DNA of 64,000 nucleotides from Colwellia polaris (GTDB lineage: Bacteria; Pseudomonadota; Gammaproteobacteria; Enterobacterales; Alteromonadaceae), in the NCBI RefSeq assembly GCF_002104515.1, contig NZ_NBOE01000001.1:310001-374000 (forward strand), in the 5' to 3' direction. The notes below the pieces were generated by a model. It made no database searches, was not told where the DNA came from, and was given only the letters and a program-made list of their open reading frames with translations. A program made the translations under genes and the position numbers. Shown piece after piece: positions 422-61,552 of this stretch. The first letter of the stretch is position 1, and each line of letters begins with the position of its first letter.

Positions 422-652
422 AACCTGAGCGCTGGATAAGTAGTACTTGCTCAATCCTCCCTTTTAAGCCATTACCTGCGTTAAAACGTCGATAAATAGC
501 CCGCTATTCATAAACGTTTTGCCTTGGAAATGGCATAAAATGAAGCATTGATGGTGTAAATTTGTGATGTTCACCTTACTATAGCATTTACTTTACCACC
601 TAAGCTTTTGATTCACTTGAGTATTAAGCACTCATTATCCAGAGTTCAGGTT
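422..652 (+). mobile_element. MITE-like element copy 1 (231 bp)
   Basis: First of six copies of the same non-coding element. The right end is the consensus TTATCCAGAGTTCAGGTT and the left end is a version with mismatches (AACCTGAGCGCTGGATAA). Internally it can fold into a long hairpin around AAAACGTCGATAAATAGC and its imperfect complement. By eye it differs from copy 4 at about 10 of 231 positions. Its flanks (AGGT left at 418-421, AAGC right at 653-656) do not match, so this is the only copy without a visible 4-bp duplication. It fills most of the 314-base gap between the ABM gene and the YjdF-like gene. Confidence 0.9.
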
Positions 653-721
653 AAGCAATATTGTGGGTGATGTTATTAACAAGCTTTAGACTATTTCTAT
701 TTTTTATGGAGCAAAATTAAT

Positions 722-1327
722 ATGTTAAAAATGCTTTGGTTAAGCTTATTTTTTATTGTGCTGATTTGGTCAGGCATTGAGCCGAAAGACCAATTTACGT
801 GGTTTTTAGAAGTATTACCGGCCATTATTGGCTTAGTGTTAATGGCGATAACGTTGAAGAGTTTTCCATTAACGCGGCTACTTTATAACTTTATTTTATT
901 ACATTGTATTGTATTAATGGTTGGCGGACATTACACCTACGCAGAAGTGCCGCTGTTTGACACTATTGCCAATTGGCTGGGCTCTGAGCGAAATAACTAC
1001 GATAAAGTTGGGCATTTTTTCCAAGGTTTTGTTCCCGCTTTATTAGCGCGTGAAATTCTTATTCGCAAAGGTATTGTTAATGGTAAGGCATGGCTAAATG
1101 TTATTATTGTAGCTATTTGTCTAGCTTTTAGTGCCTTTTATGAGTTAATTGAGTGGTGGGTTGCGGTTGCTTCCGGTGAGAATGCAGAAGCATTTTTAGG
1201 TACTCAAGGGTATGTTTGGGACACGCAATCAGACATGGCTTTGGCGTTAGTTGGCGCTATTATTTCATTGATTGTTTTAGCTAAATATCATGATCGCCAA
1301 TTAGCTAAAATACGCGTCAAACCTTAG
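722..1327 (+). CDS. YjdF/DUF2238 family inner-membrane protein
   Basis: A 201-residue polytopic membrane protein with about six hydrophobic segments. It carries the hallmark DUF2238 stretches: GGHYTYAEVPLF near residues 67-78, RNNYDKVGHFFQGF near 90-103, FYELIEWW near 139-146 and GTQGYVWDTQSDM near 160-172. The buried His, Asp and Glu residues in these motifs are typical of the family, whose biochemical role is not established. GGAG lies ten bases upstream of ATG. It is followed on the same strand by a small lipoprotein gene after about 55 bases and may share its transcript. Confidence 0.85.
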   Translation: MLKMLWLSLFFIVLIWSGIEPKDQFTWFLEVLPAIIGLVLMAITLKSFPLTRLLYNFILLHCIVLMVGGHYTYAEVPLFDTIANWLGSERNNYDKVGHFFQGFVPALLAREILIRKGIVNGKAWLNVIIVAICLAFSAFYELIEWWVAVASGENAEAFLGTQGYVWDTQSDMALALVGAIISLIVLAKYHDRQLAKIRVKP

Positions 1328-1382
1328 TGCTTATATCTAACACTGTTACTGAAAAGTAAGCGCTTAACATTTAAGGTTACTC

Positions 1383-1544
1383 ATGAAAGTGAAGCTATTA
1401 TTTATCATTATTACGCTATTTTCGCTTGTGGCTTGCAGTTCTTTTTCTGTGAGTAATCAAGGCGCAAAAGTTACTGTTGGCAAAACGGTTGAACAACCTA
1501 ATGTTATTGTGAATGGTCAAGTTAACGATATTGACAAGCCCTAG
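1383..1544 (+). CDS. Small lipoprotein (53 aa)
   Basis: ATG at 1383 opens a 53-codon frame beginning MKVKLLFIIITLFSLVAC, a textbook lipoprotein signal with lipobox L-V-A-C, so Cys18 should be lipidated. The mature part (about 35 residues) is rich in Val, Asn and Gly (VTVGKTVEQPNVIVNGQV) and resembles the short beta-strand tails of small conserved gammaproteobacterial lipoproteins; I do not recognise the family. The stop TAG is part of the hairpin at 1536-1566 that separates it from the convergent FMN reductase gene. Confidence 0.7.
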   Translation: MKVKLLFIIITLFSLVACSSFSVSNQGAKVTVGKTVEQPNVIVNGQVNDIDKP

Positions 1545-1566
1545 CGTTATAGCTGCTCTAGGGCTT
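1536..1566. terminator. Bidirectional terminator-like hairpin
   Basis: AAGCCCTAG and CTAGGGCTT form a perfect 9-bp stem with a 13-base loop between two convergent genes. The U-run is short (TTTAATATT on the plus side), so strength is uncertain. The left arm overlaps the stop codon of the small lipoprotein. Confidence 0.6.
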
Positions 1567-1588
1567 TAATATTGGTTATGTAAGTAAG

Positions 1589-2128
1589 CTAGGCAAGCAA
1601 GTTTTGCACTGCTGTTTTTAATTGTAATGCTAACGCTGCATTGGTTAATTTAGCTTGCTCAACATCAAAGTTTTCGAAAAAACTAGGTACCGATAACGAT
1701 GCTTTTACATCGCCTGCAAAGTAAGGTGCTGAGCCAATGGCCGCGGTTAATACATTTGCTGCTCCGCCTGGGCCAGGAGATGTTGAGAGTAAAATCATAG
1801 GTTTGTTTTGAAAAAGTTTTTGATTTATCCGCGAGGTCCAATCAAATAAATTTTTATAAGCGGCGCTGTAACTACCGTTATGTTCAGCAAATGAAATAAT
1901 AATGGCGTCACTTGCTCCCAACTTGTCAAAGAAAGCCCTTGCCGCTTCAGGTTGGCCCAATTCAGCTTCTTTATCTTGGCTAAAAAGTGGTATTTCATAA
2001 TCATTTAAATCAAGCACTTCTAAATCAATACCTGTTTTAATTTCAGTCGCTAATTCCCCCGCGTACTGAGCAAGTTGTTTGTTAATAGATTTACTACTGG
2101 TGCTGGCACCGAATGCAACAATTTTCAT
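1589..2128 (-). CDS. NADPH-dependent FMN reductase family protein
   Basis: The 179-residue product belongs to the flavodoxin-like FMN_red family. The phosphate-binding loop is FGASTSSKSINKQLA at residues 6-20, and the flavin-contacting segment FAEHNGSYSAAYKNLFDW lies near 80-97. Members reduce quinones, azo dyes or free flavins using NAD(P)H in the cytoplasm. It is a single gene, convergent with the lipoprotein and divergent from rluF. No specific substrate can be deduced. Confidence 0.85.
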   Translation of the reverse strand: MKIVAFGASTSSKSINKQLAQYAGELATEIKTGIDLEVLDLNDYEIPLFSQDKEAELGQPEAARAFFDKLGASDAIIISFAEHNGSYSAAYKNLFDWTSRINQKLFQNKPMILLSTSPGPGGAANVLTAAIGSAPYFAGDVKASLSVPSFFENFDVEQAKLTNAALALQLKTAVQNLLA

Positions 2129-2262
2129 ATTTGTACCTTAGTTCGTTGGGTTTTTTAACGCTTTTAATAACATTACTCTACAGTGTGATAAAAGTTAGGT
2201 AAAATGGTTTTAATTAAATGTAGAACATAAGTATTTTTAACGGATCTTATTTAGGATAGCCA

Positions 2263-3219
2263 GTGTCAATTTACGAAAAACGCCTCAACAAATATATCAG
2301 CGATTCAGGTTATTGTTCGCGTCGATTTGCCGATAAGTTAATCGAAAGCAATCGTGTAACCATTAATGGCAAAGTGCCCGAGTTAGGTACTAAAGTGGTT
2401 TCAGGCGATAAGGTTTGCGTAGACGGTAATGAGATTAAAGCCAGTGCCAGTAATCATACCGACCGGGTTTATATTGCTTATAACAAACCCGTTGGTATTA
2501 CCTGTACGACTGAGCGCCACGTTAAAGGCAATATTATTGATGCTATTGGTCATACTAAACGCATATTCCCTATTGGCCGCTTAGATAAACCATCAGAAGG
2601 CTTGATTTTTCTCACCAGCGACGGCGACATTGTTAATAAAATATTACGTGCCGAAAATGCCCATGACAAAGAATATATTGTCAAAGTAGACAAGCCTATT
2701 AGCGAGCGCTTTATTGAGCGTATGTCGAAAGGCGTACCGATTTTAGGCACAATTACTAAGCCGTGTATTGTTAAACCTGAGAGTAAGTTCGTTTTTCGTA
2801 TTATATTAACTCAAGGATTAAATCGCCAAATTCGTCGCATGTGTGAATACCTCGATTATGAAGTTACTGAGTTAAAGCGCTCACGCATTATGAAAGTTGA
2901 GCTGGGTAGTTTACGCCCTGGACAATGGCGTGACTTAACCGCTAGTGAAATGGCTGAAATTACCACGGCGGTAGCCGGATCGCGCAAAACAGCGCTTGAT
3001 GATGATTATATTGAAAACGGCGCCGATGCAGATAGTGATACTGAACAAGCGAGTGACGAAGCACCAGCCAAGGTAAACATTGCTGATATTAAACATGCGA
3101 GTAAAAGCATTGTTTCTAAATCACCGGCGTCTTCACGTAGCTTAACGCGCATAGATGTCAGCAAACCTTCAGAAAAGCCTGGCGGTAAAAAACGCTTAAG
3201 TTTGAAAAAGAAAAAATAA
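2263..3219 (+). CDS. rluF: 23S rRNA pseudouridine synthase, RluF type
   Basis: An S4 RNA-binding domain occupies about residues 5-60, followed by an RsuA/RluB/E/F catalytic domain with the motif [17 protein letters not shown] near residues 101-117, where Asp103 is the expected nucleophile. RluF modifies U2604 in the peptidyl-transferase region of 23S rRNA in E. coli. The last ~80 residues are low complexity, first acidic then strongly basic (ending [10 protein letters not shown]), and probably an unstructured RNA-binding tail. The start is GTG with AGGA upstream. RluF is favoured over RluB/E by the [16 protein letters not shown] segment. Confidence 0.88.
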
Positions 3220-3261
3220 TAAAGCGCTAAATTTTACGATGAAGTGAAGCGAGACCATATA

Positions 3262-3873
3262 ATGCATATTCCTGAAAAGTGGCGTTTAGATAAACAGTCA
3301 GATATTTTTGCCTTTATTGAAAACTATAGTTTCGCCACGTTAGTTTCACCGTCATTACAGTCGAGTCATTTGCCATTAATGTTAGATCGAGATAAACAGT
3401 GTTTAATTGGTCACTTTGCGCGGAGTAATCCACATTGGCGAGAGTTTATTAAAGATACAACTAAACAACATTTAGTGATATTCAATGGTCCTCATGGTTA
3501 TATTTCACCCTCCTGGTATGCCAATAAGCCTGCCGTTCCAACGTGGAATTATGCGGTAGTACATATTAAAGGCTGTGCTGAAATATTAAGCGCTGATGAA
3601 ACTGCACAAGCACTCGATTTATTGATGGCTAAATATGAACCTGCACTTTTAGATACACGCGATGTGGTTACCGCTGACTATCAAGAAAAATTAGCCCATG
3701 GCATTGTTGGTTTTAAAATTTCAATAGATGAAATTGACGCTAAAGCTAAGCTTGGTCAGCATCGTACAAAAGCAGATCAACAAGGAGTAACGGCGGCCTT
3801 GAGTCAATCTTCATCACCTGATCACCAAGCGTTGCTGAACTACATGCAAGCATTAAAGTTAGGTATTGGTTAG
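3262..3873 (+). CDS. PaiB-like FMN-binding family protein
   Basis: The product begins MHIPEKWR, the usual first residues of the PaiB family, so I place the start at the ATG at 3262 rather than the in-frame GTG at 3244. The fold is a split-barrel FMN-binding domain with GHFARSNPHW near residues 50-59 and the conserved PSWYANKPAVPTWNY near 83-97. Bacillus PaiB was described as a regulator of sporulation and protease genes; in proteobacteria the role is uncertain and a flavin-dependent enzyme is equally plausible. It lies 43 bases downstream of rluF and may be co-transcribed. Confidence 0.85.
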   Translation: MHIPEKWRLDKQSDIFAFIENYSFATLVSPSLQSSHLPLMLDRDKQCLIGHFARSNPHWREFIKDTTKQHLVIFNGPHGYISPSWYANKPAVPTWNYAVVHIKGCAEILSADETAQALDLLMAKYEPALLDTRDVVTADYQEKLAHGIVGFKISIDEIDAKAKLGQHRTKADQQGVTAALSQSSSPDHQALLNYMQALKLGIG

Positions 3874-3878
3874 TGAAT

Positions 3879-3903
3879 TAACACTTGTTGAGTGTTAGTT
3901 TTC
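3879..3903 (+). terminator. Terminator-like hairpin after the PaiB-like gene
   Basis: TAACACT and AGTGTTA form a 7-bp stem with a 5-base loop, followed by GTTTTCAT. It begins a few bases after the stop codon of the PaiB-like gene. Confidence 0.5.
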
Positions 3904-3995
3904 ATAACTTACTCAAGGCTTGTACAGTATTTATTCAGGTGTTACCCACAGTTTATTCATTGCCATTTTGCATACAGCAGATCAGTTTTTATCTA

Positions 3996-4910
3996 TTAAT
4001 CTTTCAAATTCAATAAATTCGCCGGTGAGTACTGGTCGGTTAATACGGGTGAATTTTTTGGCCAATCTTGCGTAGTAGCCGTTGAAAGCATTTGACGGCT
4101 TATCTCAATAATATCAACATTAAAAGGCAATAAACTAGCGCGCAAAGCTAAAGCACGTGAGGCTATTTCATCGTTGTTAGGTAATGGCTTAGCACTGGCT
4201 AATATAATGCGGTTGCTGTTGTTATTATTTTTAACATTGAAAAAATCACCAAATACAGATTTATAGGTCGCTGACTCGTAGTTATATAAACGACTTACCG
4301 AAAATGTATTTGCTGCTAAAACACCGTTTTCACTGAGTAAATTTTTAACTTCTTGTAAAAATTCTTGAGTCATTAAATGCTCAGGTATGTAGTCACCGTT
4401 AAATGCGTCGAGAATAATCCAATCGTATTGCTGCTTTTTTATCGATTCGCGCTTTATAAAAATGCGTCCGTCTTGCGCTACCGCTGTAATGTGGTCGTTT
4501 TCGAAAAAACTAAAGTAATTGCGCGCGACTTTAATTACCGCTGGGTCAATTTCGACATTGGTAATAGTCGCCTTAGGGTAGATCTGGTGTAAGGTGTTCG
4601 ACATGGTGCCGCCGCCTAAACCAATAATTAAAATGCGCTCAGGATTCGGGTTAATTAATAAACTGGAGAAAAGCATTTTAGTATAGTTAAAAACTAAGCG
4701 TTGTGGATCGTCAACTAACATGCAGCTTTGTTGAGTTTTAGAGCTTCTAACGTTAAATTTTAAGCAGCGTAAACCTTTGTTCTCTTCCACTAATATATTG
4801 CGATATAACGAACGCTCACTGTGAATAGTTTTAGCTAATATTGGTGTACTCACCATTGAACCTATAAGTAAGCCGCTGATAATAACAAGGGTAAAAATAA
4901 ACTTATTCAT
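3996..4910 (-). CDS. Spermidine synthase-like protein, catalytic half
   Basis: A spermidine-synthase/SAM-methyltransferase Rossmann domain. The nucleotide-binding loop is IIGLGGGTMSNTLHQ, followed by the acidic VEIDPAV after strand 2 and DAFNGDYIPEHL in the active-site loop. The start is set to the ATG at 4910 because it overlaps the stop of the upstream gene (ATGAATAA), arguing for translational coupling; the longer in-frame start at 4937 lies inside that gene. It then begins with a hydrophobic segment (about residues 3-25), either a signal sequence or an anchor. Together with its neighbour it corresponds to the two halves of fused membrane spermidine-synthase-like proteins. Whether it makes a polyamine is unknown. 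Confidence 0.8.
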   Translation of the reverse strand: MNKFIFTLVIISGLLIGSMVSTPILAKTIHSERSLYRNILVEENKGLRCLKFNVRSSKTQQSCMLVDDPQRLVFNYTKMLFSSLLINPNPERILIIGLGGGTMSNTLHQIYPKATITNVEIDPAVIKVARNYFSFFENDHITAVAQDGRIFIKRESIKKQQYDWIILDAFNGDYIPEHLMTQEFLQEVKNLLSENGVLAANTFSVSRLYNYESATYKSVFGDFFNVKNNNNSNRIILASAKPLPNNDEIASRALALRASLLPFNVDIIEISRQMLSTATTQDWPKNSPVLTDQYSPANLLNLKD

Positions 4911-5580
4911 GAGCTGTGCCTTGTTGGTTAAGTACATTGCTATCGCGACCTTGCTTCTGTTGATTCACACGATTAAACACCATAGCACTAACGCCAAGTA
5001 AAATTAGTACCGTACTACAGACCATAATTATGTCGTTAACTTCGAACAGTAATACTAAATAGAAAGAGGTAATTATTGTGCCTAACGCACTGCCCAGTGT
5101 TGATACAAAGTAGAGAAACCCAGCGACCTGACCGCTTTTATCTTTATCAGTAACCAGTAAGCGTACGGAATAGGGCGAAATCATACCGAGTATTACGGTA
5201 GGGACAAAAAATAATGCCATGGATGCTAATAACGAACCATAACGAGTATCTTCAATGGCGAGAAATATAGCCTCCATTATCCATTGTGAAGAAAAAGCGA
5301 CTGGCAAGACAGTAATACCCGCACAAATAAATATTAATCCGTAACGGTTTAAAGAGGCGTTTTTTGTTGATAGCTTACCGCCGGCTAAATAACCCAATGA
5401 TAAACTCAACATAAATACCGTAATGATACTGCCCCAAATATGTACGCTACTGCCAAAAAACGGCGCTAAAATTCTGCCACCTAACAGCTCAATACTCATG
5501 ATACAAAAGCCACTACTAAAGGCTAATAAATAGATTAAAGGGTTTTGCCAAGGCGAATTATTATTATTTATTTTTGTCAT
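4903..5580 (-). CDS. Membrane half of a spermidine synthase-like pair
   Basis: A 225-residue protein with about six or seven transmembrane segments. It starts FSSGFCIMSIELLGGRILAPFFG, the signature of the membrane portion of fused MFS/spermidine synthase proteins (E-L-x-G-x-R-I-L-A-P). It also carries SPYSVRLLV and LYFVSTLGSALGT, typical of the same family. It overlaps the catalytic-half gene by 8 bases, so the two should be made in equal amounts and probably assemble. The last ~25 residues are hydrophilic and Gln-rich. Confidence 0.8.
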   Translation of the reverse strand: MTKINNNNSPWQNPLIYLLAFSSGFCIMSIELLGGRILAPFFGSSVHIWGSIITVFMLSLSLGYLAGGKLSTKNASLNRYGLIFICAGITVLPVAFSSQWIMEAIFLAIEDTRYGSLLASMALFFVPTVILGMISPYSVRLLVTDKDKSGQVAGFLYFVSTLGSALGTIITSFYLVLLFEVNDIIMVCSTVLILLGVSAMVFNRVNQQKQGRDSNVLNQQGTAHE

Positions 5581-5664
5581 TAACTTACTGCTTTATTCTT
5601 GGTATTTAATCGATAAGTTATCTTATACCAATTGAATTAAGAAAGTGAGTAATTATAAGTAGGT

Positions 5665-5895
5665 AACCTGAACTCTGGATAAGCAGCACTTGCTCAATCC
5701 TCCCTTTTAACCCTTTATCTGCGTTAAAACATCGATAAATAGCTCGCTATTCATAACCGTTTTGCCTTGAAAGCGGCATAAAATGAAGCATTGATGGTGT
5801 AAATTCGTGATGTTCACCTTGCTATAGCATTTATTTCACCACCTAAGCTTTTGATTCACTTGAGTATCAAGCACTCATTATCCAGAGTTCAGGTT
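5665..5895 (+). mobile_element. MITE-like element copy 2 (231 bp)
   Basis: Perfect 18-bp terminal inverted repeats AACCTGAACTCTGGATAA / TTATCCAGAGTTCAGGTT, flanked by the direct repeat AGGT (5661-5664 and 5896-5899). It carries no gene. It lies 84 bases upstream of the membrane half of the spermidine-synthase-like pair, beyond the uvrA terminator. A partial match to the other repeat family (ATACCAATTGAATTAA, 5625-5640) sits beside it. Between 5900 and 6083 I see no further feature. Confidence 0.95.
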
Positions 5896-6082
5896 AGGTA
5901 ATGTAAACTCAGAAAATCAGGTGAGCGAAATGTGCTTTGCGGATATCGAAAAAACACTTCATTGCTTAATAATAAAGTAGTCGAATATATCCTTGCTGGC
6001 AGGTTAGTGCGTAGTTAGCTATTAAAAATAGAGGGTTAGCATTGTGCTGAGATAAAGGTCACAGATCATAGAGTTTAGAAAC

Positions 6083-6115
6083 AAAAAAGGCTTGTTATAA
6101 AAACAAGCCTTTAAT
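6083..6115 (-). terminator. Intrinsic terminator of uvrA
   Basis: AAAGGCTTG and CAAGCCTTT form a 9-bp stem with a 9-base loop. Read on the minus strand it ends in a run of Ts, about 45 bases after the uvrA stop codon. Confidence 0.8.
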
Positions 6116-6161
6116 CATGCATGAGACAGAAATTTGCAGCAATTGTTATATCAAAAGTTGC

Positions 6162-9020: not shown

Positions 9021-9334
9021 AATGACTTTTGACCAATTTAACGTCCGGGTTTGTGATACGAGATTATCGTAAACAAAGATCAGACTGAATCTAAATTATC
9101 TTATGTCTCAGTAACATTTTACATAATGATTAACGATATAATACGCGCTAAACTAAGTTGTTTTTATCGTTAATGATACCAAACGTAGCGTTGTTCTGAA
9201 CATAAAGTTGGAACCGAATATTATCGCACAATTTTTAGTCCAAATTCATCTTAAATCTCTGTTTTTGTTCATTCGATTGCCGTGTTAATATGTGCGCGTT
9301 TATATCTTCCCTACAAAATTAGAGTTTAAGTTTC
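9021..9334. promoter_or_regulatory. Divergent uvrA / yajR intergenic region
   Basis: A 314-base gap that must hold promoters for both divergent genes. TAATAT near 9285-9295, downstream of TTTTGT-like sequence, is a possible -10 for yajR, but the match is weak. No LexA-type palindrome, hairpin or small ORF stands out. Confidence 0.3.
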
Positions 9335-10699: not shown

Positions 10700-10745
10700 A
10701 TAAAGGTTAATATTTTTACCTAGTTAGTTAGCCGGATAATAGGCT

Positions 10746-11231: not shown

Positions 11232-11361
11232 TTTTTTGTCGATGTTAATATCGCTTCTCCGACTTTCCTTTTTTAATAACTCAAGCGCAGCATACTCAAA
11301 TTATAAAGAAAGTAAACTCGTGCTTTCAATGAAGATAACATTGACTATATTTGTTACTATC

Positions 11362-11373
11362 TGACAGGTGTCA
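11362..11373. promoter_or_regulatory. Candidate operator upstream of fadH
   Basis: TGACA-N2-TGTCA is a perfect 5-bp inverted repeat 124 bases before the fadH start. It does not match the E. coli FadR consensus that I know; a TetR-type fatty-acid regulator is possible but unproven. Confidence 0.25.
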
Positions 11374-11490
11374 AAATAAAGCTTGAATTTTAGCTTACTA
11401 GCAGATATTTTATAATCTGATAAGTTTAAGCAAAAATATAAACTACCTTTATATTCCTTAGCTATAAATTAATATAACCATTAAAAGTGA

Positions 11491-17055: not shown

Positions 17056-17066
17056 TGATTATATTT

Positions 17067-17297
17067 AACCTGAACTCTGGATAAGCAGCACTTGCTCAAT
17101 GCACCCTTTTAAGCCATTTTCTGCGTTAAAACGTCGATAAATAGCGCGCTATTCATAAACGTTTTGACTTAAAAATGGCATAAAATGAAGCATTGATGAT
17201 GTCTATTCGTGATGTTCACCTGGCTAGAGCATTTACTTTATCAACTAAGCTTTTGATTCACTTGAGTATCAAGCACTCATTATCCAGAGTTCAGGTT
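17067..17297 (+). mobile_element. MITE-like element copy 3 (231 bp)
   Basis: Perfect 18-bp terminal inverted repeats, flanked by the direct repeat ATTT (17063-17066 and 17298-17301). It is inserted 7 bases after the pssA stop and before the pssA terminator, so it would be transcribed as pssA 3' UTR. Confidence 0.95.
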
Positions 17298-17327
17298 ATT
17301 TACGTAATAAATCGCCTGTTAATAAGA

Positions 17328-25953: not shown

Positions 25954-26511
25954 ATGATAAATCATCGATTACTTAGCAGCTTAGCATTTCTTATTATCCT
26001 TTCATCTTGTTCTGTTACTCAAGTTGCTACTACGTCTTTTGGTGATGGTTTTGATTTTTCTGGAGTCAAAAGCTACAGCACGTATGGTCGTAACTCTGCT
26101 TTCGGTGATGTACAAAATATTAATGGCGCAATTCGTAACAACATTGAACTAACAATTGAGCAGGGTCTTGATGAAAGAGGGTTGCGTTACCAGGATGTTG
26201 AAAGTGCCGATATAGTGATTGCTTATCATCTACTGAATAATAAAGTCGGTGAATTTAAACGCTATAATCAACAAGTAAAATATTGTGGTTATTGTTTAAA
26301 TGCCGACAAAAATTCGCGTATTGAATTAGAAAAGAAATTTAACCCAGGTAGTTTAGTTATTGATATTATTGACCCGAAACGCCAACGATCTGTTTGGCGC
26401 AGTGTATATCCGTTAAACTTTAAAGCGCAAGATAATAGCCAAGAAATTCAGGATAAAATTAATCGCGCGATTAAAACTATGCTGCTCGACTACCCAAGTG
26501 GTAAAATATAA
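25954..26511 (+). CDS. DUF4136 lipoprotein
   Basis: A 185-residue protein with a lipoprotein signal (LIILSSC, Cys19 lipidated). It carries the DUF4136 pattern: FDFSGVKSYSTY near 34-45, DERGLRYQDVESADIVIAYHL near 77-97 and an I/V-D-x-x-DPKRQRSVWR segment near 143. The family is widespread in envelopes; its role is unknown. Its last codons overlap the possible GTG start of the following gene, but that gene more likely begins 35 bases downstream at 26546. Confidence 0.85.
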   Translation: MINHRLLSSLAFLIILSSCSVTQVATTSFGDGFDFSGVKSYSTYGRNSAFGDVQNINGAIRNNIELTIEQGLDERGLRYQDVESADIVIAYHLLNNKVGEFKRYNQQVKYCGYCLNADKNSRIELEKKFNPGSLVIDIIDPKRQRSVWRSVYPLNFKAQDNSQEIQDKINRAIKTMLLDYPSGKI

Positions 26512-26545
26512 GTCAAAAATTAAATCTAAAAGGAGTGCTGGCAGA

Positions 26546-27022
26546 ATGGCAAAATGGGTCGCTATTACACTGTTTGCGTTAACTTGTTTCATGGTTATCT
26601 TGCTTAGCTTAGGCTACATGTTGTCTGAGAATGAAAAATCTACCACTGAGCTGAAAGAGCAATTAGCGCAACAGATACAACTTAATCAGAAAAAAGTGCA
26701 TCAACGAAATAACCTTAAAACTTATACCAGCAATGTTCAGGCTGATATAGCGCCAACGCAAACCGATGCTGAAATAATGCAAGCGTTTGAAAGCGCGCTT
26801 ATCAACAACTTAACTTGCGTAACTGTAGCGCAATGTCAGGTGGTGACAGTTAAATTTAAAAACACACACTGTACCTTAGCCAGTAATATTATTGGTGCTT
26901 CACAATTAAGTAAAATAGCCACCCAGACCATTGCAATGGATAATTGCCCAAGTGTAAGTTCGCCCCATCAATTAGCTTGTCAGCAAAATGTTTGTAGTTT
27001 AGTTAACCTGAATTCTGGATAA
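26546..27022 (+). CDS. Single-pass membrane protein, C-terminus rewritten by a MITE insertion
   Basis: Start at ATG 26546, ten bases after AAGGAG (the earlier GTG at 26498 lies inside the upstream gene). A membrane anchor spans about residues 3-26. A coiled-coil-prone Gln/Lys stretch follows (STTELKEQLAQQIQLNQKKVHQ), then a periplasmic part with six cysteines, probably disulfide bonded. I do not recognise the family. The last codons, AAC CTG AAT TCT GGA TAA, are the first bases of MITE-like copy 4. Removing the element and one AGTT repeat restores a frame ending LV-NVIQ-stop (stop at 27252-27254) in place of the present LV-NLNSG-stop. Confidence 0.75.
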   Translation: MAKWVAITLFALTCFMVILLSLGYMLSENEKSTTELKEQLAQQIQLNQKKVHQRNNLKTYTSNVQADIAPTQTDAEIMQAFESALINNLTCVTVAQCQVVTVKFKNTHCTLASNIIGASQLSKIATQTIAMDNCPSVSSPHQLACQQNVCSLVNLNSG

Positions 27023-27235
27023 GCAGTACTTGCTCAATCCTCCCTTTTAAGCCATTACCTGCGTTAAAACGTCGATAAATAGCCCGCTATTCATCAACGT
27101 TTTACCTTGGAAATGGCATAAAATGAAGCATTGATGGTGTAAATTAGTGATGCTCACCTTACTATAGCATTTACTTTAACACCTAAGCTTTTGATTCACT
27201 TGAGTATCAAGCACTCATTATCCAGAGTTCAGGTT
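27005..27235 (+). mobile_element. MITE-like element copy 4 (231 bp)
   Basis: Terminal inverted repeats AACCTGAATTCTGGATAA (left, two changes from consensus) and TTATCCAGAGTTCAGGTT (right), flanked by the direct repeat AGTT (27001-27004 and 27236-27239). The left end supplies the stop codon of the upstream gene. Apart from this element, the 342-base gap before rraB holds only the displaced gene end and the rraB leader. Confidence 0.95.
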
Positions 27236-27364
27236 AGTTAATGTAATTCAATAGTGTGTTGTTCATACTTATTGTGTGAACAATAAATCTTGGCGGCGTG
27301 GCTGTCGTGTTTAGCATAATTTGGGTATATAATAACGCATTGTTTTTTATAAATTGTATGTAAT

Positions 27365-34652: not shown

Positions 34653-34943
34653 AAAGCTCGTTCTCTTGTATATTTATATAATGAAGCGCGTGAGTTATCG
34701 CTAGATTTTGCACATTTTAATTAACCGGCGAACTGTATCAAAAGCCAAGGACCTTAACAATAAGACGTTAGGCTAATATATTGTTTAAAATATGTCATAT
34801 TGTAAATGGTTTAGCATTTAAATTAGCTAGCTTCATTGTTGTTGTGAATGTGAGTACTTGATCTACGACTATGTTTTTATCATAGATAGTTACGTTAGCT
34901 TTAAATTGTTATGAAAAATAAATTGTTTGATTCAATACATATT
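34653..34943. promoter_or_regulatory. Upstream region of the CstA-like gene
   Basis: About 290 AT-rich bases between the CstA-like start and MITE copy 5. I see no ORF and no convincing CRP palindrome; TTGTGAATGTGAG near 34848 is only half-like. Confidence 0.3.
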
Positions 34944-34947
34944 ACTT

Positions 34948-35177
34948 AACCTGAACGCTGGATAATGAGAGGTTAATACTCAAGTGAATCAAAAGTTTAG
35001 GTTGTAAAGTAAATGCTATAGCATGGTGAACATCAAGAATAGACACCATCAATACTTCATTTTATGCCATTTCCAAGGGAAAACCTTGATGAATAGCGCG
35101 CTATTTATCGACGATTTAACGCAGAGAATGGCTTAAAAGGGAGCATTGAGCAATTGCTGCTTATCCAGAGTTCGGTT
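34948..35177 (-). mobile_element. MITE-like element copy 5 (230 bp)
   Basis: Inserted in reverse orientation relative to copies 1-4. Ends AACCTGAACGCTGGATAA and TTATCCAGAGTTCGGTT (one base lost in the right end), flanked by the direct repeat ACTT (34944-34947 and 35178-35181). It lies between two divergent genes and is the most diverged copy. Confidence 0.93.
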
Positions 35178-35276
35178 ACTTAAGCTGTTGCTCAGCTAAT
35201 TGGGTTGATTTTATTTCTATTGAATAAAACTTTATAAAAAACGATTAAAATAAGTTGATAATTTAAGGAGTTGGTC

Positions 35277-48747: not shown

Positions 48748-49767
48748 TTAATCATGACTAAATAGTTTCTTCCTCACCATAGCGCGGTATGCTTTTGGCG
48801 TAATACTTAAGGTTTTTTTAAAAAGCCGAGTGAAATTTGCTTGGTCTTGGTAGCCCACTTGAAATGCAATTTCTTGAATCGATAAATTACTCGCAGCTAA
48901 TAGCTCTTTTGCCGTTTGTATCTTTAATTTTTGCCAATATTGTGTGGCATTAATACCTGTTGCTCGTTTAAATCTGCGAGTAAACGAACGCTGACTTATA
49001 TCAAATTGTTGAGCAATATCATTTAAGGTTAATTCAGAGTTTAGGTTGGTTTTCATCCAGAATTGAATTTGACTGATTAATTCATCAGGATGGCGATCAA
49101 CCGCTCCTTCCAAATAGCGTTGTTCTTCATAAGGTTTTCTTATTTCATGAGAAAAATTACGTTCTACTTGCTGCGCGGCATTTTGCCCATAAATTTGAAA
49201 TATAATATGCACTACAATATCAGCTAAGGCATTAACACTGGCAGCGCAGTAGGTTCGTTCAGACTGGGTGATAAAGAAGTCAGGCTTAAGATCAACTTTT
49301 GGGTAATCACGTTTAAATTGTTCAACATAATGCCAATGGGTGGTAGCGGGGTGGTAATCTAGAATTCCGGCTTCAGCCATTAGGCACACTCCTGTTCCGC
49401 CACCTATTAATGTAGAGCCTTGTGCCCAAATATGACTCAACCAGTTAAGCATTCTGGGTTGCTTAGCTATGGTTGGTCGAGGGTTGCGCCATAAGCTAGG
49501 AATAAAAGCAAAATCGGGTCGTTGTGCATGTTCAATGTCAGTATCGGGCAATAACTTAATTAAAGCACGGGTAGAGATCGGCTTTATGGTTTCAGCAACC
49601 ATTTGAATTGACAACCGAGGCGCATTACGATTTTCTTGTAAGGCTACTGCCTCACCTGCACGGAGCATTTCTACGGGTAAGCTAACACTCGTGGTTAACA
49701 TATGATCATAGACTAGCAGCGCAATGTTAATCGCATTGGCTTTATTACGTTTAAGTTTTGCTTTCAT
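48748..49767 (-). CDS. AraC-family regulator with DJ-1/PfpI-like domain
   Basis: 339 residues. An N-terminal GATase1/DJ-1-like domain (about 10-200) contains IWAQGSTLIGGGTGVCLMAEAGILDYHPATTHWHY. The C-terminal AraC DNA-binding domain (about 235-335) has LTLNDIAQQFDISQRSFTRRFKRATG and IQEIAFQVGYQDQANFTRLFKKTLSITPKAYR. Such GlxA-type regulators often sense nitrogenous metabolites. It is divergent from fabY across 132 bases and convergent with the ArsR-type gene. Confidence 0.9.
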   Translation of the reverse strand: MKAKLKRNKANAINIALLVYDHMLTTSVSLPVEMLRAGEAVALQENRNAPRLSIQMVAETIKPISTRALIKLLPDTDIEHAQRPDFAFIPSLWRNPRPTIAKQPRMLNWLSHIWAQGSTLIGGGTGVCLMAEAGILDYHPATTHWHYVEQFKRDYPKVDLKPDFFITQSERTYCAASVNALADIVVHIIFQIYGQNAAQQVERNFSHEIRKPYEEQRYLEGAVDRHPDELISQIQFWMKTNLNSELTLNDIAQQFDISQRSFTRRFKRATGINATQYWQKLKIQTAKELLAASNLSIQEIAFQVGYQDQANFTRLFKKTLSITPKAYRAMVRKKLFSHD

Positions 49768-51795: not shown

Positions 51796-51824
51796 CTGCT
51801 AAAATAGCTAAGTTAGTTTTCTAC

Positions 51825-51855
51825 AAAGCCCTGCAATAGTATTGACAGGGCTTTT
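51825..51855 (+). terminator. Intrinsic terminator of fabY
   Basis: AAAGCCCTG and CAGGGCTTT form a 9-bp stem with a 12-base loop and a short T-run, 30 bases after fabY. Confidence 0.8.
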
Positions 51856-52010
51856 GTATTTAATGCACTATAAAACCTCACGATAAAAAAATTCCCAGGC
51901 TGAAAGTAACCCAAGATAATCGCTTTTTAGAGGTTTACTGTTTGGCACACTTTTCTGAATGACTTGTTTATACTTTCGTTATTTAATGGCGATAGTAGCG
52001 GTAAATATAT

Positions 52011-54215: not shown

Positions 54216-54275
54216 ATAGCGATTAAGCTAAGTGTTTTTCTTATTATTTTCATATTAAAGCGTTAGCCATATTTA

Positions 54276-54535
54276 ATACCAATTGAAATAAACAATCGAT
54301 CATTTTAAGGCGGTTTACATCGTCAATAACGGCGTTGTTTTCAATCACACACGCCCGCTATTACTCGACAATATACTCCTGTCATTGCGCTAATGACTTA
54401 CATCCATGTAAGAATCAACCAAACACCTTGCCTGCAGGGATGCAGGTACTTATGTTTAGTCTGGAACAATAAACATGTATTAATGAACAATTTATCCTCT
54501 CTTAACATTGGTCAATAACTTATTACATTTGGTAT
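54276..54535. repeat. Palindromic-ended repeat, ATACCAATTG family (long form, 260 bp)
   Basis: Left end ATACCAATTGAAATAA and right end TTACATTTGGTAT are imperfect inverted repeats. About the first 40 bases match the reverse complement of the 73-bp unit at 29131. Internal palindromes include CTTACAT-CC-ATGTAAG and CCTGCA-N4-TGCAGG. No ORF is seen. It occupies most of the 493-base gap between the cyclase gene and gltD. Confidence 0.7.
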
Positions 54536-54636
54536 AAATTATAACAAGCCTGGCATCTAGGAATTATTGTTCCACTGCAGAGAGGGATTGTCGTGGATTT
54601 AAAATGAGTGTTGGGAAGTAAGCTAATGACTTAAGC

Positions 54637-54672
54637 CACTTTAAAATGCAGTATAAACTACATTTTAAAGTG
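54637..54672 (-). terminator. Hairpin downstream of gltD
   Basis: CACTTTAAAATG and CATTTTAAAGTG are perfect 12-bp inverted repeats with a 12-base loop, 37 bases past the gltD stop. There is no strong T-run, so it may act as an mRNA 3'-end stabiliser rather than a classic terminator. Confidence 0.55.
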
Positions 54673-54708
54673 ATTAATGAAATGTCTAATGAAATGGTTT
54701 GTGGAAAC

Positions 54709-56181
<1,473 letters not shown>

Positions 56182-56184
56182 TTA

Positions 56185-59100
56185 TTATTGTGCTTGAACA
56201 CGAAGTTCTGCAGATGAACGGCTACGATGACCCAATAGGGTTTTAACATCAACGGCCTTTGGCTTAATCAACTTAAATTGTGGTGCATACGAGTCGAAAT
56301 TAGCTAAAATTTCTTCTGCTCTTAAGCTACCTGTTTCATCTAAGTGTTGGTTAATAATGCCACGTAAATGTTCTTGATGAATATTGAGTTCATCAATCTC
56401 TAACATTTCAATTGATTCGTTATTAAGGCGTGTTGCTAAATCGTTTTGTTCATCGAGCACATAAGCGAATCCGCCAGTCATACCAGCACCAAAGTTAACC
56501 CCAACTTGACCTAAAATAGCTACTATACCGCCGGTCATGTATTCACAAGCATGATCACCAGTGCCTTCAATAACTGCATGACAACCTGAATTTCTTACTG
56601 CAAAACGCTCACCTGCACGGCCGCAACCGAATAGTTTACCGCCCGTTGCACCATATAAGCAGGTATTGCCCATAATCATCGTTTTGTGGCTTAAATACTC
56701 AACACCTCTTGGTGGTTTGATAGTTAACTTACCACCCGCCATACCTTTACCAACGTAGTCGTTAGCATCACCTGTTAGTGTCATTTCTAAGCCACCGGCA
56801 TTCCATACACCAAAGCTTTGACCCGCAGTACCATTTAAAAATACCTTAATTGGGTTTGCTGCCATACCTTGGTCGCCATGTTGACGAGCTATTTCACCAG
56901 AAAGCGAAGCACCGACAGATCGATCAGTATTTTGAATCGTTACTCGATATTCACCGCCATTACTGTGTGCAATTGCATCAGAAGTCAGTGCAAGTAAACG
57001 TTGGTTTAATTCACCTTTATCAAACGGTTCATTACTATCTGTTTGATGTAATGCTGTATCTTCACCAGCAATAACCGGTGCGATAATAGGACGTAAATCT
57101 AGTTTTTGTTGCTTAGCCGTAATGCCTGCTAACGGCACAAGTAAGTCTGTACGGCCAATAATAGCGGTTAAGCTTTCAACACCTAAACGGGCTAAAATTT
57201 CACGTACATCTTGAGCAATAAATTTAAAATAATTCATTACTTGATCTGGTAAACCTTTAAAGAATTGTTCACGCAATACTTCGTCTTGTGTTGCAACACC
57301 TGTAGCACAGTTATTTAAGTGACAAATACGTAGGAATTTACACCCTAACGTTACCATAGGGGCGGTACCAAAACCGAAACTTTCAGCACCTAAAATAGCG
57401 GCTTTAACGATATCGATGCCGGTTTTTAAACCGCCATCAACTTGCAATCGAACTTTATGGCGTAAACCATTAGTGACTAATGATTGGTGTGCTTCAGCTA
57501 AGCCAAGCTCCCATGGACAACCAGCATATTTAACTGAAGTTAATGGGCTTGCACCTGTACCACCGTCGTAACCTGAAATAGTGATAAAGTCAGCGTAAGC
57601 TTTTGCTACACCTGAAGCAATAGTACCAACACCAGGGCCAGAAACGAGTTTGACTGAAATAACCGCTTTTGGATTAACTTGCTTTAAATCAAAGATTAGC
57701 TGAGCTAAATCTTCAATTGAATAGATATCGTGATGTGGCGGTGGTGATATTAAAGTAACACCAGGAACTGAAAAACGTAGCTTTGCAATTAAAGGGGTTA
57801 CTTTGTCACCCGGTAACTGACCACCTTCACCAGGTTTTGCACCTTGGGCAACTTTAATCTGTAAAACGTCGGCATTAACTAAGTAATGTGGAGTAACACC
57901 AAATCGGCCAGAAGCTATTTGTTTAATGCGAGAGTTTTTAACCGTGCCAAACCGACGCTCGTCTTCTCCACCTTCACCAGAATTTGAAAAACCACCAAGA
58001 CGGTTCATCGCAATAGCAAGTGCTTCATGTGCTTCTGGACTCAATGCCCCAATTGACATAGCGGCACTGTCAAAGCGTTTAAATAACTCGGTATCTGCTT
58101 CAACGGCTGAAATATCAATCGGTGTTTGGTCGTCTTTCAGGGCTAACAAATCTCGTAAGGCCGCCGCAGGACGATTATTGACGTGATCAGCAAAAACTCT
58201 GTAATCACTATAATCACCACTGCGAACAGCAGCCTGAAGTGTACTTACAACATCTGGGTTGTAAGCATGATACTCACCTCCGTGAACATATTTAAGTAGG
58301 CCACCGTGGTTCATTTTTTGATGCGGTAAAAAGGCTTTTCGCGCAAGATTAATAGTGTCTTGCTCTATATCTGCAAAGTCAGCACCTTGAATACGGCTTG
58401 GTAAATCAGGGAAACAAAGTTCCATGATATTACTGTTTAAACCGATAATTTCAAATAGGCCCGCACAACGGTAACTGGCTATGGTGGAAATACCCATTTT
58501 AGATAATATTTTCAACAGGCCTTTATTGATGCCTTCACGGTAATTAACCACAGCTTCACGAGCCGTTAGGTCGATTTGTTTGTCTTCAACTAGTTGCTCG
58601 ATCGTTTCAAAAGCTAAGTATGGATAAATTGCCGTAGCACCTAAACCAAATAGCACGGCAAACTGATGCGAGTCACGAACCGAAGCTGTTTCTACAATAA
58701 TGTTAGAGTCACAGCGTAATTGCTTGTCAACTAAGCGTTTTTGAACAGCGCCAACAGCCATAGCAGCAGGCATAGGTAACATGCCTTTTTCTATATTACG
58801 GTCTGATAATATTAAGATAACCGTATTTTTGTCTCTCACTAATACTTCTGCTTCGTCACATAAACGAATAACCGCGGCTTCTAAGCCTTCTGCTTGGTCA
58901 TAATTTAAAGCTAAGGTATCAGAACGGTAGTGTTCTGGGTCAAGTTCACGTAATTGCTTTAAACCGGTGTACATTAATACTGGAGTAGCGAATAAAATAC
59001 GATCAGCATGGCCCGTTGTTTCATTAAAAACATTATGCTCACGGCCTATACAAGTGCCTAGCGACATAACGTAGCGTTCGCGTAACGGGTCAATCGGTGG

Positions 59101-60645
59101 ATTGGTTACTTGCGCAAATTGCTGGCGGAAATAGTCAAAAAGTGAACGTGGCTGGCTTGATAATACTGCCATTGGTGTATCATCACCCATTGAGCCTGTA
59201 GCTTCTTGGCCATTTTCCGCTAATGTTTTTACTACTTGATGAATTTCTTCATAACTGTAGTTGAACATTTTATGGTATTGAGCGATTTCTTGATCGCTAA
59301 AGATTCGTTGTCCAATTAAGCGGGCATCGAGTTTATCGAAAGGCACTAAACGACGAATATTATTATCTAACCATTCTCGATAAGGGTGGCGAACTTTAAG
59401 TTCATTATCGATCGCGTTAGAGTTGAAAATTTTGCCCGTGTAAGTATCAATGGCAAGCATTTCACCTGGGCCAACACGGCCTTTTTCGACAACTTCATCT
59501 TCACCGTAATCCCAAATACCCACTTCAGAAGCTAACGTGATAAAACCATCGCGGGTAATTACGTAACGCGCTGGTCGCAGGCCATTTCTATCTAGGTTAC
59601 AAGCAACATGACGGCCGTTAGTTACCACAACACCAGCAGGCCCATCCCATGGCTCCATGTGCATAGAGTTAAATTCATAAAAGGCTTTTAAATCGTCATC
59701 CATTAATGGGTTACTTTGCCACGCAGGAGGCATTAATAAACGCATGCCACGGAAGAGGTCCATACCGCCGGCCATAAATAGCTCAAGCATGTTATCTAAT
59801 GATGAAGAATCTGAACCGCTCTCATTAACAAATGGTGCAGCATCTTGTAGATCCGGTAATAACGGTGACTTAAAGCCATGTGTTCTTGCTCGACTCCACT
59901 GGCGATTACCTTTAATGGTATTTATTTCACCATTATGTGCTAAATAACGGAACGGTTGTGCTAAATGCCATTGTGGTGATGTATTGGTTGAAAAGCGCTG
60001 ATGAAATAGGCAGATGGCAGTTTGCATGCGAATATCAGCAAGGTCTAAATAAAAATTCGGTAAATCTACCGGCATCATTAAACCTTTATATATAGTAACC
60101 AAGCACGATAAACTTGCTACGTAAAAACGTTCATCATTGATGCGTTTCTCGGCACGTCGTCTTGCCATATATAGTCGACGCTCAAGATCGCGATTACGCC
60201 AACCTGACGGCGCATTAACAAAAATTTGTTCGATAGCGGGTAAATTGCCTTTAGCAATTTCCCCTAAAGTAGTGGTGTCAGTTGGAACTTCTCTCCAACC
60301 CACTAATGAAAGAGTTTCATTGGCTAACTCTTCTTCTAGAATTTTTTTACTGGCACTCGCTAAAACTGGATCAGGGTTAAGAAAAACCATACCTACAGCG
60401 TATTTTTTACCTAATTGCCAATTATTTTCTTCTGCGACAGCGCGAAAAAAACTGTCAGGCTTTTGCATTAACAAACCACAGCCATCACCCGTTTTGCCAT
60501 CGGCAGCGATACCGCCACGATGTTGCATACGGTCTAAGGCTTGAATGGCCGTCTTTACGAGTTTATGACTTGTTTCGCCGTGTTGATGGGCAATAAGACC
60601 AAAGCCACAATTGTCTTTTTGATATGTATGATCGTAAAGTTGCAT
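56185..60645 (-). CDS. gltB: Glutamate synthase large subunit
   Basis: 1486 residues. A short 12-residue leader precedes Cys13 (DNCGFGLIA), the N-terminal nucleophile of the class II amidotransferase after processing. The central and FMN-binding synthase domain includes SGEGGEDERRFG and PPPHHDIYSIEDL, and the 3Fe-4S site is C-x5-C-x4-C in CKFLRICHLNNCATG. The C-terminal GXGXG beta-helix has TGGIVAILGQVGVNFGAGMTGG. It assimilates ammonia-derived glutamine nitrogen in the cytoplasm together with GltD. Confidence 0.97.
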   Translation of the reverse strand: MQLYDHTYQKDNCGFGLIAHQHGETSHKLVKTAIQALDRMQHRGGIAADGKTGDGCGLLMQKPDSFFRAVAEENNWQLGKKYAVGMVFLNPDPVLASASKKILEEELANETLSLVGWREVPTDTTTLGEIAKGNLPAIEQIFVNAPSGWRNRDLERRLYMARRRAEKRINDERFYVASLSCLVTIYKGLMMPVDLPNFYLDLADIRMQTAICLFHQRFSTNTSPQWHLAQPFRYLAHNGEINTIKGNRQWSRARTHGFKSPLLPDLQDAAPFVNESGSDSSSLDNMLELFMAGGMDLFRGMRLLMPPAWQSNPLMDDDLKAFYEFNSMHMEPWDGPAGVVVTNGRHVACNLDRNGLRPARYVITRDGFITLASEVGIWDYGEDEVVEKGRVGPGEMLAIDTYTGKIFNSNAIDNELKVRHPYREWLDNNIRRLVPFDKLDARLIGQRIFSDQEIAQYHKMFNYSYEEIHQVVKTLAENGQEATGSMGDDTPMAVLSSQPRSLFDYFRQQFAQVTNPPIDPLRERYVMSLGTCIGREHNVFNETTGHADRILFATPVLMYTGLKQLRELDPEHYRSDTLALNYDQAEGLEAAVIRLCDEAEVLVRDKNTVILILSDRNIEKGMLPMPAAMAVGAVQKRLVDKQLRCDSNIIVETASVRDSHQFAVLFGLGATAIYPYLAFETIEQLVEDKQIDLTAREAVVNYREGINKGLLKILSKMGISTIASYRCAGLFEIIGLNSNIMELCFPDLPSRIQGADFADIEQDTINLARKAFLPHQKMNHGGLLKYVHGGEYHAYNPDVVSTLQAAVRSGDYSDYRVFADHVNNRPAAALRDLLALKDDQTPIDISAVEADTELFKRFDSAAMSIGALSPEAHEALAIAMNRLGGFSNSGEGGEDERRFGTVKNSRIKQIASGRFGVTPHYLVNADVLQIKVAQGAKPGEGGQLPGDKVTPLIAKLRFSVPGVTLISPPPHHDIYSIEDLAQLIFDLKQVNPKAVISVKLVSGPGVGTIASGVAKAYADFITISGYDGGTGASPLTSVKYAGCPWELGLAEAHQSLVTNGLRHKVRLQVDGGLKTGIDIVKAAILGAESFGFGTAPMVTLGCKFLRICHLNNCATGVATQDEVLREQFFKGLPDQVMNYFKFIAQDVREILARLGVESLTAIIGRTDLLVPLAGITAKQQKLDLRPIIAPVIAGEDTALHQTDSNEPFDKGELNQRLLALTSDAIAHSNGGEYRVTIQNTDRSVGASLSGEIARQHGDQGMAANPIKVFLNGTAGQSFGVWNAGGLEMTLTGDANDYVGKGMAGGKLTIKPPRGVEYLSHKTMIMGNTCLYGATGGKLFGCGRAGERFAVRNSGCHAVIEGTGDHACEYMTGGIVAILGQVGVNFGAGMTGGFAYVLDEQNDLATRLNNESIEMLEIDELNIHQEHLRGIINQHLDETGSLRAEEILANFDSYAPQFKLIKPKAVDVKTLLGHRSRSSAELRVQAQ

Positions 60646-61253
60646 TATCTTTATCTTCTCCTAAAAGGCCTCGGCAGTATGGTTTAATGAGAATGGAATA
60701 AAATTATACTTAAAGTGCATAAATAGTCCCGAATTCGTAGCGAGGAACCCCTTACATTAAACATTTAATACACCAACGTCAATCCGAATAGAGTAAATGC
60801 TCGTAATTATTTTACATTTTAACTCGCAATATAAGGATAATAAGGTGTTAGTGTGATCATATCATTAAAAAAAGCCAAGGTTATTGGTGTTTTATAGCGA
60901 TTTAAAAGTTTAACGCTTAACTTTATGTAATTTTATTACATTATTGTGGTGTAAAATGAAAAATACTTAGAATATTTTGTATTCACTATTTATTCACTGT
61001 TATAAGCCGATAATGTATGATTTTGGGCTATTATGTTGATTAAATAGTTGTTCCTCTTCGAATAAGACAACCTTAAAAGCACGACATAATGTAAGTCTGC
61101 TCACCAACTAAAGATGAAAGCATGAATTTTGTACAATAACAATTGTGCTTTAGTAACATATTTGCGTAATTTTTCTATTTTTTGCTCATTAGCAACGATT
61201 GACTTGATTATTGATGTAATGCCCCGCGGATCTTTTTTGAGCTGAGTTTTGAT
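60646..61253. other. Long non-coding region upstream of gltB
   Basis: About 600 AT-rich bases between the gltB start and the folE2 terminator. It must contain the gltBD promoter. I find no ORF of plausible composition on either strand and no repeat-family match. Small inverted repeats such as GTAAT-TT-ATTAC near 60930 and ACAATAACAATTGT near 61132 are the only structure noted. An unannotated small RNA or regulatory leader is possible but unsupported. Confidence 0.4.
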
Positions 61254-61291
61254 GATAAAAAAATCCCCTACTATCGAGATAGTAGGGGATT
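61254..61291 (-). terminator. Intrinsic terminator of folE2
   Basis: AAATCCCCTACTA and TAGTAGGGGATTT form a perfect 13-bp stem with a 6-base loop; on the minus strand a T-run follows. It is separated from the folE2 stop by the whole of MITE copy 6. Confidence 0.9.
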
Positions 61292-61321
61292 TATAAGATT
61301 TAGTGAGTTATTTAGTTATTT

Positions 61322-61552
61322 AACCTGAACTCTGGATAATGAGTGCTTGATACTCAAGTGAATCAAAAGCTTAGGTGGTAAAGTAAATGCTATAGCAAGG
61401 TAAACATCACGAATTTACACCATCAATGCTTCATTTTATGCCATTTCCAAGGCAAAACGTTTATGAATAGCGGGCTATTTATCGACGTTTTAACGCAGGT
61501 AATGGCTTAAAAGGGAGGATTGAGCAAGTACTGCTTATCCAGTGTTCAGGTT
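61322..61552 (-). mobile_element. MITE-like element copy 6 (231 bp)
   Basis: Reverse orientation. Ends AACCTGAACTCTGGATAA and TTATCCAGTGTTCAGGTT (one mismatch), flanked by the direct repeat ATTT (61318-61321 and 61553-61556). It lies six bases beyond the folE2 stop codon and before the folE2 terminator, so it is transcribed as folE2 3' UTR. Confidence 0.95.

Follow-up and report, generated by a model that had tools for sequence, protein, structure and literature searches.

What moved a family of six miniatures through one short stretch of the Colwellia polaris genome, and which parts of the miniature matter for its movement? The stretch, referred to here as the window, comprises 64,000 nucleotides of the 4.43-Mb host genome, which is assembled in 28 contigs. 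In a preliminary description of this DNA, six copies of a short element with 18-bp inverted repeats at its ends were reported, and their movement was ascribed to a transposase acting in trans. We conclude that the miniatures are very probably protein-less miniature inverted-repeat transposable elements (MITEs) moved in trans by a transposase of the IS982 family, with a probability of roughly 0.87.

All six copies were recovered where they had been placed, with near-perfect terminal inverted repeats. Four lie on the plus strand (c1, 422–652; c2, 5665–5895; c3, 17067–17297; c4, 27005–27235) and two on the minus strand (c5, 34948–35177; c6, 61322–61552). The copies are 230–231 bp long, c5 being 230 bp owing to a 1-bp deletion within one inverted repeat, and agree in size and in their 18-bp terminal inverted repeats with the description of MITEs as typically under 300 bp with terminal inverted repeats, given in the sections considered of PMC9769881. 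When the window was searched with the 18-bp end, 13 matches were obtained against 0.05 expected from shuffled sequence; twelve of them lie inside the six copies, and the thirteenth (49030–49047, with three mismatches) is part of no copy. The differences between c1 and c4, put at about ten in the preliminary description, number exactly 10 of 231 positions, and c4 belongs to a closely alike set, sharing 96–98% identity with ten further copies. The absence of a conserved open reading frame (ORF) was also borne out, since in all 52 copies of 231 bp each of the six frames is interrupted. A predicted ORF at 26498–27022 runs into c4 and apparently takes its stop codon from there.

Subsequently, the whole genome was considered. 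The 18-bp end pattern, with two free positions and at most one mismatch, gave 151 matches (73 forward and 78 reverse), and the reversed control pattern gave none genome-wide. From the fetched loci, 73 rows of paired ends spanning no more than 233 bp were obtained, 58 of them 230 or 231 bp long. These rows represent 72 loci, as one 43-bp locus was counted on both strands, and the number is a lower bound (at least 72 elements); copies in the own genome were found through their ends, so that those with badly altered ends are under-sampled. The mean density is about one element per 60 kb, and six copies in 64 kb compare with 1.05 expected at that mean (Poisson P of about 0.0008 for this window alone, which came to notice because of its six-copy cluster). 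One copy per ~10 kb, called dense before, thus holds for the window but not as a general density, the window being a local cluster.

Exact 4-bp repeats flank five of the six window copies, as had been claimed: AGGT at c2, ATTT at c3, AGTT at c4, AAGT at c5, and AAAT at c6 (the last two read ACTT and ATTT on the window strand). The exception is c1, with AGGT on one side and AAGC on the other. Four composite spans longer than 233 bp were removed before duplications were counted genome-wide. Exact duplications were then observed in 53 of the 73 rows (47 of 4 bp and six of 5 bp), whereas random re-pairing of the flanks gave a mean of 6.0 and a maximum of 14 in 1000 trials. All 47 of the 4-bp repeats are preceded by T, and 46 of them are followed by A; with these bases, the 4-bp cases read T-ANNT-A in 46 of 47 rows and the 5-bp cases T-ANNNT-A in all six. 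The preferred ANNT target suggested in the preliminary description is thus part of a longer pattern, TANNTA or TANNNTA.

When the ends are drawn one base further in, as ACC...GGT, 45 rows show 6-bp and six rows show 7-bp duplications, and all 51 are TANNTA or TANNNTA. The element is then 229 bp long and starts ACCTGAACTCTGGATAA. We regard this as the better choice, because an AC start is recorded for 57 of 69 IS982 elements, with repeats, where they occur, of 2–10 bp (PMC7335449, in the sections considered); the 4–5 bp and 6–7 bp readings cannot be told apart from sequence alone, because the target itself supplies TA. Drawn in this manner, c1 occupies 423–651, with TAGGTA on its left and a non-matching right flank; c2 occupies 5666–5894, with TAGGTA at 5660–5665 and 5895–5900; c3 occupies 17068–17296, with TATTTA at 17062–17067 and 17297–17302; c4 occupies 27006–27234, with TAGTTA at 27000–27005 and 27235–27240; and c6 occupies 61323–61551, with TATTTA at 61317–61322 and 61552–61557. 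The duplication of c5, located by eye, is TACTTA at 34943–34948 and 35177–35182. The left flank of c2 (window 5624–5661) is another repeat (TATACCAATTGAATTAAG...), short parts of which also match related genomes at several sites.

Whether the flanking 4-mers are duplications was decided by a nested copy on contig 6, in which AAAT stands at both sides of the outer element and AGGT at both sides of the inner one. Removal of the inner 231 bp together with one AGGT left 231 bases that align to c3 with no gap, at 93.1% identity. Because the nested copy yields a clean empty site, its flanking repeat arose by duplication when the copy inserted. That the repeat might be only vertically conserved intergenic sequence is contradicted at the c2 locus. 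In 14 of 16 congeneric genomes the interval between the flanking matches is 52–194 bp, too short for the element, which is accordingly absent from at least 14 of the 16; the intervals in G002 and G004 are 271 and 265 bp, with no element there among the matches listed, and G010 matches the locus up to the insertion point only. A between-species empty-site alignment at c2 was also attempted and set aside as unclean, since the flanks are about 75–87% identical and homology is lost to the right of the insertion point.

Some loci depart from the simple form. Short forms with both ends were found at L105 (129 bp), L106 (62 bp), L046 (162 bp), and L195 (185 bp), and exact 4-bp duplications are kept at all of these except L046. 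Head-to-tail pairs of miniatures, 4 bases apart, occur at L028 (1501–1951) and L205 (1319–1731). The outer flanks of the L028 pair are both AGTT and the intervening bases are AGCT, an arrangement that would fit one miniature inserting beside another at its duplicated target.

A candidate source of the transposase was found at the contig ends. At the start of contig 1, AACCTGAATTCTGGATAA precedes the beginning of a gene (VDKLIDIFCDV), and the same 127 bases end contig 25. Two further contig ends share 127 bases in which a gene end is followed by an inverted end (AACCTGAGATCTG...). The flanks of these contig ends pair, AATT with AATT and AAAGT with AAAGT, and two copies of one insertion sequence (IS) would appear to break the assembly here. 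Their targets, TAATTA and TAAAGTA, have the form of those used by the miniatures. The left end of the IS agrees with the commonest miniature end at 17 of 18 bases, and miniature ends differ from it by 1.5 mismatches on average. An IS of the expected kind, with a near-matching left end and duplications of the same pattern, thus lies at contig breaks, and only the two ends of its gene are readable; the left end and the shared duplication pattern nevertheless point to a transposase that would act in trans, as had been proposed.

The family of this IS was approached through relatives. Its left 126 bases match G016 at 84% and an IS of the congener G004 at 72%, and the last 31 residues of its gene align to residues 263–287 of the G004 transposase with 14 of 25 identical. 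The G004 IS is present in many copies (five full-length matches) and encodes a 294-aa transposase of the IS982 family (NF033520, 273.3 bits against a cut-off of 130; PF13612 also); one of its copies, L088, is flanked by AAAT on both sides. A further left-end match comes from G071, where an IS left end and one end of a resident miniature agree at all 18 bases. The exact left-end pattern of the IS gave no match among the named genomes described below. When ACCTGAACTCTGGATAA was compared by eye with the published motif AC(N)6T(N)5TT (PMC7335449), AC, T9, and T15 fitted and T16, which is A in the miniature, did not. With the ACC ends, 51 of 73 rows have duplications of 6 or 7 bp, within the 2–10 bp of the family.

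Two features of the IS982 relatives themselves were observed. An inverted repeat covers the start of the transposase gene by eye (L031 1–126 on the minus strand, L088 ~1510–1580, and L103 ~1530–1600), and its arms vary yet stay complementary (CCCACCT/AGGTGGG, CCCGTTCC/GGAACGGG, and CCTGTTCC/GGAACAGG), as if suited to silencing read-through translation. In G004, nine IS982 copies (L118–L126 and L129–L137) share a 211-aa frame, 201 residues of which match at 98–99%. Behind it lies the tail of a second transposase, which is diverged (74%) and interrupted by stops, as if an IS of chimeric and probably inactive form had been multiplied in that genome.

The miniature is not confined to this host. 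Among 40 relatives, own genome included, nine matched, two of them across 35–41 bases only; a wider scan of 295 genomes from the 52 genera of the family gave matches in 41 genomes and 16 genera, many of them merely over the length of an end. Matches of at least 130 bases were found in 23 of the 295 genomes, in seven genera, in a scan that scored two candidates per genome and may have missed others. The elements have thus spread through marine bacteria of the Colwellia group. Of 41 loci extracted (three of them repeats), 40 are 228–232 bp and one is 205 bp, with identity down to 74%. When named genomes were scanned with a pattern, 84 stretches were obtained, among them ones from Colwellia psychrerythraea, C. 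piezophila, C. marinimaniae, Cognaticolwellia aestuarii, C. mytili, Thalassotalea sp. ND16A, and other Colwellia and Alteromonadaceae; some of these loci are from the same genomes as the set of relatives. Eighty stretches were analysed, giving 61 elements with both ends and 19 without, and the single Thalassotalea locus has a recognized left end only. Exact 4- or 5-bp repeats flank 50 of the 61, with T and A as the adjoining bases in 44 of 46 four-bp cases. No match to the miniature was found in plasmids, phages, or viral contigs, the last being searched with the exact pattern.

We also examined what lies between the ends. In c3, a hairpin core occupies 17093–17194 (element positions ~27–128) and, by alignment, has the same relative place in the other copies; an inverted self-match at 30–130 agrees with it. 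Folds of the single copy c4 gave z scores of -8.2 and -10.3 on the two strands. In 43 sequences, 18 of 64 pairs have changed on both sides, compared with 7.0 +/- 1.7 in shuffled controls and at most nine in slid versions of the structure.

Substitution rates were then compared between the internal branches of a tree, taken to represent the jumping lineage, and its tips, taken to represent landed copies. The first tree was built from the distinct sequences among 98. L244–L246 had been removed as repeats of other loci, and c5 is not part of alignment A2. On own-genome tips (G000), changes per site are even along the element (ends 1.33, neck 1.20, core 1.13, and middle 1.22). On internal branches they are 0.53, 0.25, 0.99, and 2.69, respectively (chi-square P 1e-13). 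A tree of 135 sequences took in 58 of the 61 named-genome elements (218–236 bp); the first 33 bases, fixed by the search pattern used for those genomes, were excluded from its rates. Short tips gave 2.17, 2.40, 2.01, and 2.60 for ends, neck, core, and middle, and internal branches gave 0.56, 0.50, 1.31, and 3.93. Pair-preserving double changes in the core make up 8 of 24 on internal branches versus 6 of 79 on terminal ones (P 0.003). As the constraint is present in the propagating lineage and absent after landing, it points to mobilization rather than to use by the host. No strand asymmetry was found in the changes from Watson–Crick pairs (64 to G.U versus 50 to A.C, P 0.22), and a role at the level of DNA is therefore likelier than one at the level of RNA. 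A minus-strand preference from an earlier cell count was rejected, as it was confounded by shared ancestry and by a structure chosen on that strand.

Within the variable middle, one little-changing island was recognized as a motif resembling a binding site of integration host factor (IHF), the consensus of which is WATCAANNNNTTR. In c3 it lies at 17246–17258 on the minus strand and reads AATCAAAAGCTTA, an exact fit. It occupies the same place in the other copies, on the minus strand at 601–613 (c1), 5844–5856 (c2), and 27184–27196 (c4) and on the plus strand at 34987–34999 (c5) and 61361–61373 (c6); all six fit exactly, with AATCAAAAGCTTA or, in c5, AATCAAAAGTTTA. Shuffled middles gave 0.16 exact matches on average. 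On internal branches the nine specified positions show 1.33 changes per site versus 5.5 at the four free positions; none of the other 60 offsets tried gave so low a rate, and one as low arose in 4 of 100000 random draws. The host genome holds a gene above the cut-off of the IHF alpha family, and binding of IHF at the motif is plausible. No exact consensus site was found in the four IS stretches scanned. Taken together, the constraint on the ends, the ~100-bp hairpin, and the IHF-like motif suggests that the last two are candidate internal cis-signals for mobilization.

Several observations weigh against this account as a whole. On the side of the transposase, the partner gene in the own genome is readable only over its 11 first and 31 last residues; its IS982 assignment rests on two gene ends and the kinship of left-end DNA, and the whole G004 transposase gave no match in that genome. 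A full match to the left end of the IS is seen at an end of only five of 73 rows, and the right end of the IS fits more poorly, with 4.4 mismatches on average; c3 has no significant match to IS982 sequences beyond its first 19 bases, the core showing no kinship to the IS. Among 16 other genomes that carry the miniature, ten gave no match in the transposase search and six no full-length uninterrupted one, and the ends of the abundant G004 IS differ from those of the miniatures there (AACCTCAGCTCGGG versus AACCTGAACTCTGG). Twenty of 73 rows lack an exact 4- or 5-bp duplication, c5 being scored among them solely owing to its end deletion. On the side of the internal signals, tips of other genomes are uneven (ends 1.03, neck 1.05, core 1.20, and middle 3.08), as are the long tips of the 135-sequence tree (0.94, 1.20, 1.29, and 2.71); we read the uneven tips of other genomes as long lineages rather than landed copies. 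Poorer alignment of the middle may have raised its apparent rates, and the tree could be distorted by gene conversion or by transfer between genera. The IHF motif was tried after the fact, as one idea, and the exact consensus is present in only 39 of 135 sequences (74 have one mismatch, 18 two, and four three), including 14 of 78 outside the own genome, where a further 46 have one mismatch.

The absent or incomplete IS982 matches in the other hosts, the differing ends in G004, and the partly readable own-genome gene count in favour of a rival reading, in which a transposase of an unseen family with the same ends moves the miniature. We consider this highly unlikely, since the left end of the IS matches in both the own genome and G071, both IS copies sit in the same target form as the miniatures, and the ACC start and the duplication length fit the IS982 family as described in the sections considered of PMC7335449. 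A quite different explanation is that the repeat is a transcribed structured RNA or mRNA-processing signal, such as a terminator, stabilizer, or small RNA, that is kept by the host and was spread by duplication. Its genomic placement bears on this. Among the 65 rows of at least 150 bp, 60 were placed between predicted genes (ORFs of at least 90 aa) and five, including c1, were unplaced; any overlap of the 60 with a predicted gene is at most 60 bp long. Their neighbouring genes are co-directional in 37 cases, convergent in 17, and divergent in six (17 versus 6, P 0.035; window gaps longer than 30 bp number 15, 13, and 13, respectively). The lack of longer overlaps with genes, the stable fold of c4, the covariation of paired positions, and the precedents of ERIC and NEMIS (PMC2229807, in part) would suit an RNA. 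The 37 copies between co-directional genes, however, show no orientation bias (18 same and 19 opposite), the changes are not asymmetric between strands, own-genome tips change evenly, and the copies carry target duplications; no Rfam match was obtained in the window at the gathering score, and a tRNA scan found nothing. An RNA kept by the host is thus very improbable.

The remaining alternative opposes only the internal signals and leaves the MITE reading intact: the hairpin may reflect a mutational process, template-switch repair of quasi-palindromes, rather than selection, with the miniature needing only its ends. By this process double changes would arise in one step, and L265 has, by eye, a perfect palindrome where others are imperfect; part of the covariation could be accounted for in this way. 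The low single-site rates in the core and in the IHF-like motif on internal branches are left unexplained by it, and as a full explanation we judge it unlikely.

Returning to movement by an IS982-family transposase, the following course of events may be proposed. The transposase would bind the 18-bp ends, both of which resemble the left end of the IS, and would excise or copy the miniature. Joining to a staggered cut in a TA-N2/3-TA target would then produce the 6–7 bp duplications. The ~100-bp palindromic hairpin and the IHF-like site, 40–52 bp from the right end, may help to bring the ends together, a role that has moderate support because both are constrained on internal branches, in the jumping lineage, and not at the tips of landed copies. 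More tentatively, and at somewhat less than even odds, the miniature may form a parasite lineage in its own right, one that has long persisted across the Colwellia group while its IS982 partners came and went, with a transposition enhancer of its own (the hairpin core and an IHF-bend site, which the partner IS lacks) by which it outcompetes the IS for transposase. In our view bacterial MITEs are mostly treated as transposase ends around filler; the comparison of internal branches with tips across several genera shows which internal positions may matter for jumping. It also offers a concrete candidate for cis-acting enhancers in the IS982 family, called somewhat unexplored by its reviewers (PMC7335449, in part), together with a sharp TA-N2/3-TA target rule.

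No account of this miniature family was found among the open-licence PMC papers listed in our searches, ISfinder lying outside the search. As far as our searches show, the family is new in its host group, as are the target rule and the evidence for internal signals; an IS982-linked MITE is already known in kind. The comparisons that follow draw on selected sections of the papers cited. The IS982 family shares with the miniature the AC start and duplications within 2–10 bp, and the partner would supply the DDE transposase of the family; the miniature differs in carrying no gene. The TA-N2/3-TA target is not described in the sections examined of PMC7335449, and the word MITE is absent from that paper. 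RUP of pneumococcus is likewise a miniature tied to a named IS through its ends; it differs in its partner, IS630-Spn1, in its TA-containing target, and in having no functional DNA motif reported (PMC2229807). The Correia/NEMIS elements of Neisseria are also miniatures with inverted repeats and stem-loops, and the 155-bp Correia form lies between genes in nearly all cases and contains an IHF site at which binding was demonstrated in vitro and for which a role in transposition was suggested (PMC2229807); these elements are ~107 and 155 bp, and the likeness drawn here is one of description. The closest system is MITECca01 of Cardinium, about 240 bp long and present in 169 copies with ISCca4 of the IS982 family as its partner (PMC9769881). 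It resembles the Colwellia miniature in size, IS982-type inverted repeats, lack of a transposase, high copy number, and the presence of a partner IS. MITECca01 is reported to be unique to one strain and to keep short IS stretches next to its ends (PMC9769881), whereas the Colwellia miniature occurs in seven genera by long matches. Both of its ends are of the left type, its core shows no relation to the IS, and it also differs in its covarying hairpin and IHF-like motif.

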